DNA of 39,035 nucleotides from a virus, in IMG/VR virus record IMGVR_UViG_3300028377_000024, positions 1 through 39,035 of that record. One strand, given 5' to 3'. The notes under the pieces are model-generated. The model was not told the DNA's origin and did no database searches. It saw only the letters and a list, made by a program, of their open reading frames with translations. The position numbers were made by a program, and so were the translations under genes. Below, piece after piece: positions 24,012-37,974 of this stretch (within the stretch, counting starts at the first letter, position 1; every line of letters begins with the position of its first letter).

Positions 24012-24503
24012 TTAAACCTGGCTCCATCCAAAGTGTCCATATTGCCCGCTTGGTTTTCTAAACCCTTGTCCTTGATCAATAAGCTCATAGGTATTACCTT
24101 CATCAACAACTTTCGTACCCAAGTCCATTGCTTGAAATTCATGAGATTGGAAACTGCTCCATTCGGGAATATTTGTTGGATCTGGAACTCGAATGAATAA
24201 TGCTGGTACATCTTCTACATTGTGATGAGTTCTATAATGAGGTTGTCTGGCTTTTACGGGTGTTCCATTATAATTATACACCCTCTCTTCAACCCATTCT
24301 CCCTCTTCTGGAAGATCAGGAAGTTTGGCTGTGAAGTTAGATACAAATGCAAGTTGTGTCGCTTCATCTTCGGTAAGTTCAAATACCAGTTGACCTGTAA
24401 CCGTTTCTTGATCGGGGTTCGTTTGTCCTATATGAAGAACATCTCCCGTCTCATCGTGAGCTACCCAATACGTTGTCTTTGTTGGTTTGCTTATTCGTCC
24501 CAT
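24012..24503 (-). CDS. Lectin-like spike tip protein (chitin-binding-like C-terminus)
   Basis: 163 aa. The C-terminal 60 residues (ALFIRVPDPTNIPEWSSFQS, MDLGTKVVDEGNTYELIDQG, then YGHFGWSQV) follow the pattern of small CBM5/12-like carbohydrate-binding domains of phage tail fibres (LGxKVxHxGxxYxSxxxxxxxxPxxxGxW). The N-terminal part resembles a fibre-tip chaperone-like segment with Thr/Pro-rich strands (DETGDVLHIGQTNPDQETVT). It starts one base inside the stop of the 547-aa fibre gene (TAATG), so it is coupled to it. I infer a glycan-binding tip or adaptor for the fibre. Confidence 0.6.
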   Translation of the reverse strand: MGRISKPTKTTYWVAHDETGDVLHIGQTNPDQETVTGQLVFELTEDEATQLAFVSNFTAKLPDLPEEGEWVEERVYNYNGTPVKARQPHYRTHHNVEDVPALFIRVPDPTNIPEWSSFQSHEFQAMDLGTKVVDEGNTYELIDQGQGFRKPSGQYGHFGWSQV

Positions 24504-26146
24504 TATACACTACCTCCGTCTGTGATTGTCCATGCTGGATCTGGATTTACTCCTGTAAGATAATTATGAGCGTCTACTGCGTTGTCATAAGGTGTTCCGC
24601 CGTATATTGTTGAGTTATAAGTTATCGTTCCTGCTCCTAATGCTATTCCTGAAGGAAGGCCTGCATTTCCGTCTACAAAATTACCCCATCCGATAAGTGC
24701 TCTGGAATAGTTCTCTGCAGAGAGTCCTGAAGACTCAAACATCCGACTCATATCCGTAACGGAACTCACATTCCAACTTCCTATATCCTGATTGAATGCA
24801 GAGGCTGCATGGAACATCCTGTACATATTCGTAACAGAACTCACATCCCATCCTGAAATATCCTGATTGAATGCAGAGGCTTGATAAAACATAAATCCCA
24901 TATACGTAACGGAACTCACATCCCAACTTCCAATATCCTGATTGAATGCAGAGGCTTGATAAAACATAAATCCCATATCCGTAACGGAACTCACATTCCA
25001 ACTTCCTATATCCTGATTGAATGCAGAGGCTCCAAAAAACATAGTATACATATTCGTAACAGAGCTAACATCCCAACTTCCAATATCCTGATTGAATGCA
25101 GAGGCTTGATAAAACATAAATCCCATATCCGTAACGGAACTCACATTCCAACTTCCTATATCCTGATTGAATGCAGAGGCTGCATGGAACATCCTGTACA
25201 TATTCGTAACAGAGCTAACATCCCATCCTGAAATATCCTGATTGAATGCAGAGGCTTGATAAAACATAAATCCCATATTCGTAACAGAACTCACATCCCA
25301 ACTTCCTATATCCTGATTGAATGCAGAGGCTGCATGGAACATCCTGTACATATTCGTAACAGAACTCACATCCCATCCTGAAATATCCTGATTGAATGCA
25401 GAGGCTTGATAAAACATAAATCCCATATACGTAACGGAACTCACATCCCATCCTGAAATATCTTGATTGAATGCAGAGGCTTGATAAAACATAAATCCCA
25501 TATACGTAACGGAACTCACATCCCAACTTCCAATATCCTGATTGAATGCAGAGGCTCCAAAAAACATAGTATACATATTCGTAACAGAGCTAACATCCCA
25601 TCCTGAAATATCCTGATTGAATGCAGAGGCTTGATAAAACATAAATCCCATATACGTAACGGAACTCACATCCCATCCTGAAATATCTTGATTGAATGCA
25701 GAGGCTGCACGGAACATATGTCCCATATTCGTAACAGAGCTCAAATTAGGTATATCCGTAAACGTTCCAATCATATTTGAACAGCCATAGAACGCTTCTT
25801 CCATGCTCTCCCATGCAATATTACCCCAGCTCTGAATCTCTAATAACTTGAGCTTGTCTCCGCCATTAGCAAACTGAATATGAGGGAAAATTCCTGTTAT
25901 CCCTACAATATATTCTCCTGCTGTGGCATAGGTATGAGTAGCATCTCCCGTTAGCCCTGTGGAGATGTTCCCATCCCCCCAGTCTACATCGTAGTTGAAT
26001 GTTCCTACTCCCGTAGGAATGGTGAATTGAGTATCAGTAGAAGTACCCGCATTATCACTCTTCACAAGCATTTGGAAAGCAGGGTTTGATTCTGATACTC
26101 CCCTTGATTTTATCGTATTAAGTGATATAGCTAATCCTAGCTTCAT
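24503..26146 (-). CDS. Repeat-fibre adhesin: PKD-like domain plus 13 DUF285-type repeats
   Basis: 547 aa. Residues 25-85 contain a PKD-like domain ([36 protein letters not shown]). Residues 141-465 are thirteen consecutive 25-residue units of the form [15 protein letters not shown](S/G)(G/S)W(D/N)VSSVT(N/Y/D), the DUF285 (surface-protein 26-residue) repeat found in Bacteroidota, Mollicutes and Lactobacillales surface proteins. A degenerate unit (MSRMFESSG) and a unique C-terminal cap follow. There is no signal peptide, so unlike its bacterial relatives it is not predicted to be exported. The gene starts 1 nt downstream of the spike-base-like gene and overlaps the lectin-like gene. I infer a head-spike or tail fibre that borrowed a bacterial adhesin repeat. 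Confidence 0.75.
24752..25726. repeat. 13 x 75-bp in-frame tandem repeat array
   Basis: Thirteen near-identical 75-bp units, each one DUF285 repeat, fill 975 bp without spacers. Four module types differ in residues 4-8 of the unit: MFYQ (seven copies), MFHA (three), MFFG (two) and MFRA (one), shuffled in order. Flanking residues also switch between SGWD, GSWD and GSWN. Identity at the DNA level is very high between copies, which should permit expansion, contraction and gene conversion. Confidence 0.9.
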
Positions 26147-35134: not shown

Positions 35135-35656
35135 ATGAAAAAACATGCACTAACGGGATTTGGACATTTAATATACCCTATCTTCAAAGACTCAAAGAGA
35201 GCTGTTGAAAGAATAACACAGATAGTAGACTTTATGGATCAAAACTTCCATAAAAACCATGTATACTTTGGAACAGGAACATCTGGTGCTATCATTCTTA
35301 CTCTAATTAATCATCTATTCAATCGTAATATTGTCCTTGTTAACAAAGGCAGTACTCACCACAGGATGATTATAGAAGGTAAAGTTAATGGTAACTCTAT
35401 AAATCATGCTACTGAACTATATAATCGCAGACAGGAATATCATTTTGTATTTATAGATGATTTCTTAAATACAGGAGCTACTGCTATGAAATGTCTACAT
35501 ACTGTCTTAGGCCAAGCTAGCAACTTACCTCTTGATTTAAGAGCTAAAGTTGATGTAATGTTTGATGCTGTAGCTATACTATCTAAATGTGGTAGTAATG
35601 ATGTAATTAATAGTTTAAATGACTACACTAAACATTACATACAAATAGAGGATTAA
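35135..35656 (+). CDS. Phosphoribosyltransferase-like protein
   Basis: 173 aa. FVFIDDFLNTGAT (104-116) is the 13-residue PRPP-binding motif of type I phosphoribosyltransferases (two acidic residues, then TGxT). YFGTGTSGAIIL (44-55) is the usual PPi loop. No hood signature identifies the base. The enzyme would add PRPP-derived ribose phosphate to a base, or salvage nucleotides for phage DNA synthesis. It precedes the interrupted gene at 35659 by 2 nt. Confidence 0.75.
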   Translation: MKKHALTGFGHLIYPIFKDSKRAVERITQIVDFMDQNFHKNHVYFGTGTSGAIILTLINHLFNRNIVLVNKGSTHHRMIIEGKVNGNSINHATELYNRRQEYHFVFIDDFLNTGATAMKCLHTVLGQASNLPLDLRAKVDVMFDAVAILSKCGSNDVINSLNDYTKHYIQIED

Positions 35657-35658
35657 TT

Positions 35659-35964
35659 ATGGGAGAAATAGCAGACATGATGATAGATGGTATTTTAGAC
35701 TGTTAAACAGGTGAATATATTGGACCACCTGTAGGATATCCTAGAACATCATCTGGTAGGAATAGGAATAGTGCAGTAAGAGGAATCAAAAACTTTCTTA
35801 GAATTCATACTGACATGGCTAATGAGGACTTGCACAAATATTGTCTTACATATCTAAAAGAGACTGGATTAGAATTCAATAATGCGCCACCTTGGATAGA
35901 TGTAGGAGAAATTATACAAAAAGACTTTGAGCAATTTGCTCAATACGTTAAATCAAAACAATAA
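35659..35964 (+). pseudogene. Small conserved gene interrupted by an in-frame TAA
   Basis: From ATG at 35659, 15 codons (MGEIADMMIDGILDC) end at TAA (35704-35706). The same frame then runs open for 85 codons (TGEYIGPPVGYPRTSSGRNR ... FEQFAQYVKSKQ) to TAA at 35964. IADMMxDGxLDxxTGEYIGxxxGYPRT is a pattern I associate with small phage proteins. A single C-to-T change (CAA to TAA) would explain the stop. There is no internal ATG near the break. It is either inactivated or read through. Confidence 0.7.
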
Positions 35965-36104: not shown

Positions 36105-36449
36105 ATGAAAAAGATAACACAGTTGTTAACACGCAGTAACAAGCAAATATCACAAGCAAGAGCACATCGTATTACTAAAAGTGTAGATACTTCTTTTCAG
36201 AAGAAAGTATTGAACCTAGAAGGTGAGATCTCTCAGATGGAAGATAGGAGAGAGCGTCTGCTTGATATGTCTTCAAGTAACGTAACTACAACCAAGAATG
36301 CAGTAGATGATCTCGAAGCAGATGGGTTTGTAGATGCTATTACTGACATTGATATTAAGCTTGAGCTTAAGAGACGACACATTAAAGTCGTTAAACAGTC
36401 TCAAGAAGATATCATGGGAGATGTAGTTGAAGATACGGACCAGTCATGA
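36105..36449 (+). CDS. Coiled-coil small protein
   Basis: 114 aa, polar and helical, with heptad-like stretches (KVLNLEGEISQMEDRRERLL, DIDIKLELKRRHIKVVKQSQ). Its codon use is more regular than in its neighbours. The TGA stop overlaps the next ATG (ATGA), so it is coupled with the deoxyribosyltransferase-like gene. Function unknown. Confidence 0.5.
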   Translation: MKKITQLLTRSNKQISQARAHRITKSVDTSFQKKVLNLEGEISQMEDRRERLLDMSSSNVTTTKNAVDDLEADGFVDAITDIDIKLELKRRHIKVVKQSQEDIMGDVVEDTDQS

Positions 36450-36982
36450 TAGATGTCTATTTTAGTATATCCAAGCAGTATAGGAAGTATGCTGATAAAG
36501 ACTATGATATTTTAGGTAGCTCCTTAAAAGCTATAGGCTATGAATCAGATGAGTTTAAGTTACGTAAGTTCAGTTCATCTGTTTATACATCTTGTGAGAA
36601 TGAAGTTAGATATCCTGACTTTATGGTTACAAGCTTGCCTCATATAGGTAAACTTATAGGTAAAGGTAGTTACATAGAAATAGAATATGCTAGAGATAAT
36701 GATATACCTGTATTTGTGATTATTGATGTCGATAGCAAAAGAAAGATGTTTCTTGTAGACTATGCTAAGCCTGTATATGAGAATGATTGGGTTATGCATG
36801 CTCGAATTACTCTCTACGATGAGGAGCCTATAGGTAAACAGCGTATGAAGGCTATATTCTCTAACTTCAACATAGATGAGCCTAAATCAGCTAAAGATCG
36901 CTGGATCAGAACAAACTCTCCTGTTACAGAAGAGATCGAAGAGACAGTAGATCAATCAGAGAACATATTGTTCTTGTTATAA
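36446..36982 (+). CDS. Nucleoside 2-deoxyribosyltransferase-like protein
   Basis: 178 aa. GSYIEIEYARDNDIPVFVI (74-92) matches the E-I-x-x-A-x-x-x-x-x-P-V core of the NDT/DUF4406 fold (also related to TIR-like NAD-cleaving proteins); MIDVYFSISKQYRKYADKDY is the usual first strand and loop. The predicted substrate is a nucleoside or NAD-type glycosidic bond. Together with the phosphoribosyltransferase-like protein it suggests nucleotide metabolism or modified-base work. Moderate confidence; fold-level only. Confidence 0.55.
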   Translation: MIDVYFSISKQYRKYADKDYDILGSSLKAIGYESDEFKLRKFSSSVYTSCENEVRYPDFMVTSLPHIGKLIGKGSYIEIEYARDNDIPVFVIIDVDSKRKMFLVDYAKPVYENDWVMHARITLYDEEPIGKQRMKAIFSNFNIDEPKSAKDRWIRTNSPVTEEIEETVDQSENILFLL

Positions 36983-37375: not shown

Positions 37376-37405
37376 TTTCAACTAGTCGGTTGAAGGTAGG
37401 AGTGA

Positions 37406-37445
37406 GAGAAGCTGGTATAATTTTGTACTGGCTTCTCTTTTTATA
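37406..37445 (+). terminator. Terminator before the tmRNA gene
   Basis: GAGAAGC (37406-37412) pairs with GCTTCTC (37431-37437), with a TGGTA/TACTG extension inside, then TTTTTAT. It separates the 110-aa gene from the tmRNA, so the tmRNA should have its own promoter between about 37446 and 37489. Confidence 0.8.
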
Positions 37446-37489
37446 TTATATAAAATACTGTTATATTACAGATTCATTGATAAAAACAT

Positions 37490-37849
37490 GGGGGATTTCT
37501 GGATTCGACAGGATGTACCGTGTTATGTTTACAACGTGGCTGATGGACTACCATTACAGTTAAATTGAACTGACAACAATCAATCATCTAAAATTGTAGG
37601 GTTTATTGGCTCTGCAAGACAAGAACTGGCTCAAGCAGCTTAGACTTGTTCGTTCTACCTGATGCTAATAAGGAATCATAGAGCGTTATAATTAGCAGAT
37701 CACCTGTGAGAAGGTTATAGAAACTCTGAGTGACAGCTAAGTAGCTATACTTTACTAGCTCATATAATATAATGTGAAAAATAGCAAATCGTTGTACAAT
37801 AAATATAATGACAGCATTTTGGACAGGGGTTCGACTCCCCTATCCTCCA
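37490..37849 (+). ncRNA. ssrA: Complete tmRNA (ssrA) with unusual tag
   Basis: The 5' end (GGGGGAT, then TGGATTCGACAGG) and the 3' end (GGACAGGGGTTCGACTCCCC, then TATCCTCC and A) form the tRNA-like domain: a 7-bp acceptor (one G-U), the conserved GGATTCGAC D-loop signature, and an AGGGG/CCCCT T stem. Length 360 is normal. The 3' CCA is not encoded. The predicted tag frame ends at TAG (37641-37643) and reads GSARQELAQAA (resume codon near 37602-37608; exact start uncertain). The C-terminal Ala-Ala is retained, but the usual LAA is AQAA. It would rescue stalled ribosomes and mark the product for proteolysis. Confidence 0.9.
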
Positions 37850-37866
37850 CTTTAAAAGCTAATCTT

Positions 37867-37974
37867 ATGGATGATAATCAAATTATATGCCCAGAGTGTT
37901 TAGAATTTAGTTCTGAAGAAGAATTAGATGAATACTACGGACTATGCAAAGACTGCGCAGAAGATGCAGAGTAG
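37867..37974 (+). CDS. Tiny zinc-ribbon-like protein
   Basis: 35 aa from the ATG at 37867. CPEC and CKDC pairs, 21 residues apart, form a zinc-ribbon or rubredoxin-like knuckle (IICPECLEFS, YGLCKDCAEDAE). A longer reading from 37774 would overlap the tmRNA 3' end and is rejected. Its start is 17 nt after the tmRNA, so it may share its promoter. Confidence 0.55.
   Translation: MDDNQIICPECLEFSSEEELDEYYGLCKDCAEDAE

Follow-up and report, generated by a model that had tools for sequence, protein, structure and literature searches.

That phages, crAss-like ones among them, can carry tmRNA genes is documented: ten phages were listed in 2014 (PMC4131195) and 402 of 18,146 phage genomes in 2021, with upkeep of the translation machinery or degradation of host proteins as suggested roles (PMC9004378). 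Phage DS6A carries a tRNA-domain-only molecule without a tag frame (PMC4131195), the crAss-like phage cr7_1 (NC_055895) has a permuted two-piece tmRNA, annotated in RefSeq, with the 13-residue tag DNVNNIVDYTNVA, and the Cellulophaga phage Calle has one published tmRNA together with 20 tRNAs (PMC8776804). The most frequent tag length in the 2025 tmRNA database paper is 10 residues (PMC11915505). We found no account, in the searchable papers, of systematically long tags without an LAA end in Bacteroidota phages. Long tmRNA tags are known in mycobacteriophages, and the LAA end is usual, not obligatory, in the tmRNA family: accepted tmRNAs with other ends exist.

Here we analyse a 39 kb viral fragment, positions 1-39,035 of the record IMGVR_UViG_3300028377_000024 (hereafter the window). 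Like that of DS6A, its tmRNA is phage-borne, but it has a tag frame; like cr7_1, its genome is crAss-like, but the tmRNA is in one piece. The window shares a one-piece tmRNA and a long non-LAA tag with the Cellulophaga phages Calle and phi38:1, with Flavobacterium psychrophilum phages such as FpV4 and with the crAss-like phi14:2. The tags of these phages nevertheless differ from its own, being 30-38 residues long, unrelated in sequence, with a GN... start and a common xANM motif. Bacteroidota tmRNAs with the tag DNNYSYRLAA resemble the window tmRNA in the tRNA-like domain, the GACAAC context, an A at -4 of the resume codon and overall length (363-371 nt, with 360 nt in the window). They have a 10-residue tag ending in LAA where the window has a 23-residue tag ending in QAA. 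An extra hairpin predicted within the window tag template is not a feature of that clade. Neither the gene nor the phage is of a new kind; what sets the window tmRNA apart is its unusual tag.

A complete tmRNA gene in a crAss-like phage fragment

Judged by the homology of its terminase, portal and major head protein, the window is a fragment of a crAss-like phage (Crassvirales). The terminase is 38-41% identical to those of crAss-like phages over ~90% coverage, and the major head protein matches PHROG 11589 (E 2e-93) with 24-34% identity to crAss-like records; portal and terminase have PHROG matches as well. We called 20 tRNA genes in the window. Beside the tRNA cluster, on the minus strand (24503-26146), lies a gene for a 547-residue protein with many near-identical repeats, BspA/DUF285-like by eye.

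The one-piece tmRNA (ssrA) gene occupies positions 37490-37849 on the plus strand (360 nt), from the acceptor stem to the discriminator A, with CCA not encoded. The initial annotation had placed a full tmRNA at exactly these coordinates. The Rfam model RF00023 matches 37490-37852 over its full length (cmscan, model positions 1-374 of 374, 79.2 bits with a gathering threshold of 47, E 2.6e-29). The annotation had named Infernal and ARAGORN as checks: Infernal gives a high model score with the resume codon in the frame it had read, while ARAGORN, run on the window, did not call the gene.

The acceptor and T arms, described earlier as intact, are both seen in the sequence. The 5′ part of the tRNA-like domain (37490-37512, plus strand) comprises the acceptor strand GGGGGAU and the D-arm region UCUGGAUUCGACAGG. 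Its 3′ part (37820-37849, plus strand) comprises UGGAC, the T arm, the acceptor strand AUCCUCC and the discriminator A. The acceptor stem has 7 bp and is of the alanine type with a G3-U70 wobble; the T arm pairs AGGGG with CCCCU (5 bp) around the loop UUCGACU. The 5′ region UCUGGAUUCGAC is present, and both sequence and alignment give a D-arm region without an anticodon arm.

The pseudoknots are suggested rather than resolved. PK1 pairing is ambiguous. A candidate PK2 (37651-37697, plus strand) has two 7-bp helices, CGUUCUA/UAGAGCG and UGCUAAU/AUUAGCA; it is equalled by 92 of 500 shuffles, not significant alone, and we dropped it as support for the tmRNA.

The gene had also been described as a transcription unit of its own, which holds for its upstream side. 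An intrinsic-terminator-like hairpin with a 16-bp stem and a T run (37404-37446, plus strand) ends the upstream operon. We found no terminator-like element downstream of the tmRNA, and a 35-codon ORF (37867-37974, plus strand) begins 18 nt after the discriminator. Its product, MDDNQIICPECLEFSSEEELDEYYGLCKDCAEDAE, has two CxxC motifs, is zinc-ribbon-like and found no match in a PHROG search. This CxxC...CxxC mini-protein is possibly co-transcribed with the tmRNA. A phosphoribosyltransferase-like gene also lies near the tmRNA (35135-35656, plus strand; PHROG 2068, E 4e-4), and in phi38:1 and Calle a phosphoribosyltransferase is located directly 3′ of the tmRNA.

The resume codon and the predicted tag

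The most likely resume codon is GAC at 37572. The predicted tag template runs from this codon to the last Ala codon (37572-37640, plus strand; 23 codons) and would encode DNNQSSKIVGFIGSARQELAQAA, followed by the stop codon TAG at 37641-37643, which adjoins a predicted H5-like helix (GACAAG/CUUGUU). In the Rfam alignment, the model resume codon falls on this GAC. From there the frame is open for 23 codons into ELAQAA-TAG, which is the frame that the initial annotation had picked independently. Its TAG stop and its ...LAQAA end were read correctly; its start was set near RQEL, so that its tag was too short because the resume codon lies upstream.

We also scored candidate sites with a position matrix built from 75 unique Bacteroidota resume contexts (positions -7 to +6). 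GAC 37572 is the top site with 7.1 bits, a score reached by about 5-10% of shuffled windows, and the runner-up scores -2.5. With each tmRNA left out in turn, the matrix placed the actual resume site at the top for 116 of 120 Bacteroidota tmRNAs. A shorter matrix (-7 to +3) favours position 138 (GSSSLDLFVLPDANKES), an implausibly late start beyond the positions where resume sites are known to lie.

The context of the codon agrees with that of its bacterial counterparts. With a hyphen before the resume codon, the window reads TTGAACT-GACAAC and the DNNYSYRLAA clade AATAATT-GACAAC; the fuller reads are TTGAACT-GACAACAATCAATC and AATAATT-GACAACAATTATTC, respectively. In E. coli the A at -4 (A86) is essential and a G at -5 is tolerated (PMC2481249). 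The window context GAACT-GAC keeps the A at -4, and its frame ends in GCA GCT TAG. An independent pair of phage tmRNAs (L269 and L346) has the context TTGAATT-GACAAC and 25-residue tags, that of L269 being DNVFNVSENFLNEASVFSTRELAAA by the resume rule. By the same rule, a tmRNA in a record with a crAss-like terminase (L326) has the tag DNRQSEGAAIINMAFANVRVAVAA, which begins DNRQS.

Other readings of the tag were discarded. The E. coli rule offers UUU (UAGGG-UUU, FIGSARQELAQAA), dropped on the Bacteroidota contexts, and GGC (TTATT-GGC, GSARQELAQAA), dropped with a score of -9.0 compared to 7.1 for GAC 37572. A frame from GCU (ALQDKNWLKQLRLVRST) has both position and end wrong. Recoding of the TAG was rejected because the window ORFs are intact under the standard code (table 11; 29 TAA, 5 TGA and 4 TAG stops) and the window record has no suppressor tRNA.

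The end of the tag compared to bacterial tags

The initial annotation had called the C-terminus atypical, and comparison with bacteria bears this out. Among Bacteroidota tmRNAs that we collected, ARAGORN read 122 and 120 gave usable tags. These are 8-19 residues long, mostly 9-10, with GENNYALAA (25 of 120) and DNNYSYRLAA (22 of 120) as the commonest. They end in LAA (89), MAA (29), FAA (1) or YAA (1), and QAA is found in none of the 120. The hydrophobic LAA-type end is thus absent from the window tag, while 118 of the 120 end in LAA or MAA. No identical tag occurs among the Bacteroidota sampled.

The suggestion that such a tag would evade host ClpXP is a different matter. E. coli ClpXP depends above all on the terminal Ala-Ala-COO-, and KM rises modestly when the antepenultimate Leu is mutated (PMC7652416). 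Because the window tag retains the Ala-Ala end, escape from host proteolysis is unsupported. The other suggestion, that the host is flooded with a competing tag, is likewise unsupported. The best-supported expectation is that the tag would be a functional degron, perhaps one of lower efficiency; a weaker or adaptor-independent degron is possible.

Long tags recur in other phages

Scanning viral contigs with the window T-arm sequence, which is independent of the tag, recovered many phage tmRNAs. Starting from one of these, we found that 29 F. psychrophilum phage records, phi38:1/phi40:1 and the crAss-like phi14:2 carry tmRNAs that are not annotated; the tmRNA of Calle, reached in the same way, is annotated. 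For example, the cultured Flavobacterium psychrophilum phage FpV4 (KT876724.1) carries an unannotated tmRNA on the minus strand near 82.0-82.4 kb (L388, 2501-2915), with a 35-residue tag, GNTNNSVVSLEDNAQVEANMNMAFSLIREDVAVAA, by the resume rule. In phi38:1 the unannotated gene (L389, 1201-1562) has a minus-strand ORF annotated over the locus, and the rule gives the tag GNNTNAVNAQIEANMEAVNAILNLEVAVGV. In Calle_1 (L390) the annotation places the tmRNA ~50 nt further downstream than the covariance model does. The tmRNA-like gene of phi14:2 (KC821624.1; L391, about 1163-1632) is below the Rfam threshold, and ARAGORN finds it but cuts its tag short; the resume rule gives 38 residues, GNDTDNTQLKANMTVVHNILNGSDALIGSSVQKLAMVA. 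ARAGORN thus misses some of these phage tmRNA genes or truncates their tags.

In crAss-like and related phages, some with hosts not identified, LAA or MAA ends occur in 0 of about 12 tag families, with lengths of 17-38 residues. Across 19 phage tag families, deduplicated by hand, not independent and several without an identified host, the median length is 24 compared to 9 in bacteria. None of the long phage tags ends in LAA or MAA, while the shorter tags of other phages (8-14 residues) mostly end in LAA. That long tags never ending in LAA or MAA recur in crAss-like and related Bacteroidota phages, with synonymous change preserving the peptide in some families, may be new.

Two tag families could be compared at codon level. 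The tags of FpV4 and L313 give pS 0.62 and pN 0.12, those of L302 and L332 pS 0.47 and pN 0.11. Differences in both families are mainly synonymous, which points to selection on the peptide.

Origin of the window tmRNA

When the tRNA-like domain is scored without the tag, each of the 12 bacterial tmRNAs (of 122) that come closest has the tag DNNYSYRLAA or DNNYSYSLAA, the best matching the window at 53 of 64 positions. Acquisition from a host of this DNN clade is plausible, but a phage tmRNA (L318) is closer still, at 56 of 64. The tag GNFIQKIVGWFQSVIAGFKSRTVFSY of L318/L351 (record G300) has KIVG, as does the window tag, through different codons; this common stretch may be chance.

We found no close relative of the window tmRNA. 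Exact-pattern scans of viral contigs with its own 5′ and tag sequences returned no matches, and the two genes upstream of it led to no relatives. We searched 37 viral records related by terminase, of which some span 78-83 kb, and none had a tmRNA above threshold; carrying the gene is thus not a general trait even of near relatives, although fragments are weak evidence. Window proteins had no homology to the loci around several phage tmRNAs. Viral matches to TTCTGGATTCGACAGG are mostly host copies at prophage ends or marine permuted tmRNAs.

Proposed function and alternative explanations

The analysis shows the gene, the integrity of its domain, the frame, the atypical long tag and the phage context. 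From the sequence features, we consider it probable that this is a working phage-encoded tmRNA that would resume translation at GAC 37572 and rescue ribosomes via host SmpB, its tagged chains probably still being degraded. The tmRNA would be transcribed during infection and processed by host RNases, the host nucleotidyltransferase would add CCA, and host AlaRS would charge it with alanine through G3-U70. Host SmpB and EF-Tu would then bind it and allow entry into ribosomes stalled on truncated mRNAs. Translation would resume to add (Ala)-DNNQSSKIVGFIGSARQELAQAA, and the TAG stop would free the ribosome. Tagged chains are probably ClpXP substrates because the tag ends in Ala-Ala, perhaps weaker ones than with a host LAA or MAA tag. 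The phage would gain rescue capacity under mRNA cleavage or tRNA shortage, the same need that its 20 tRNA genes suggest.

No smpB gene was found within the 39 kb window record. Another viral record (G287) encodes a full SmpB (36229-36654, L377, 170.9 bits) in addition to its tmRNA (35398-35755), and some phages may bring the pair together.

The principal alternative is that the tag serves mainly for something other than degradation, so that rescued phage proteins are spared or sent to a different protease, or that the tag acts as a peptide. The missing LAA and MAA ends and the length of 17-38 residues across the crAss-like and related tag families favour this, as does the conservation of some families by synonymous change, which implies that the peptide matters. 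Yet several phage tags, including that of the window, retain the Ala-Ala-COO- that is the main ClpXP signal (PMC7652416), and we found no relative close enough for a selection test on the window tag. We regard this alternative as unlikely.

We weighed two further explanations. As proposed for the tRNA-domain-only form of DS6A, the molecule could act as a decoy, sequestering SmpB or blocking the tmRNA of the host, and DS6A-like molecules do inhibit tmRNA when expressed (PMC4131195, PMC11915505). A decoy, however, needs no mRNA-like part, open frame or stop, and the window tmRNA keeps all of these, which makes this role very improbable. tmRNA genes are common integration sites, and several of the viral matches are host copies at prophage ends; the gene could accordingly be a functionless, decaying host copy gained by recombination at an att site. 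We give this very little credence: the tRNA-like domain is intact, the remainder differs widely from every host gene sampled, a scan of right-arm proteins of this crAss-like phage recognised no integrase, and other crAss-like phages also carry tmRNA.

Beyond the probable rescue function of the window tmRNA, a bolder reading, which we consider unlikely, would group the Bacteroidota phage tmRNAs as a class in which the tag has been lengthened and the LAA end lost. Their tag would be a selected phage peptide with a purpose other than, or in addition to, that of a host degron; it might, for instance, direct rescued proteins to a particular protease or away from it. The cultured phages phi38:1 and Calle of Cellulophaga, and phi14:2, carry such genes and make the idea directly testable. 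If long non-LAA tags do alter the fate of rescued proteins, these phages would have split the two jobs of tmRNA, the freeing of ribosomes and the marking of proteins for destruction.
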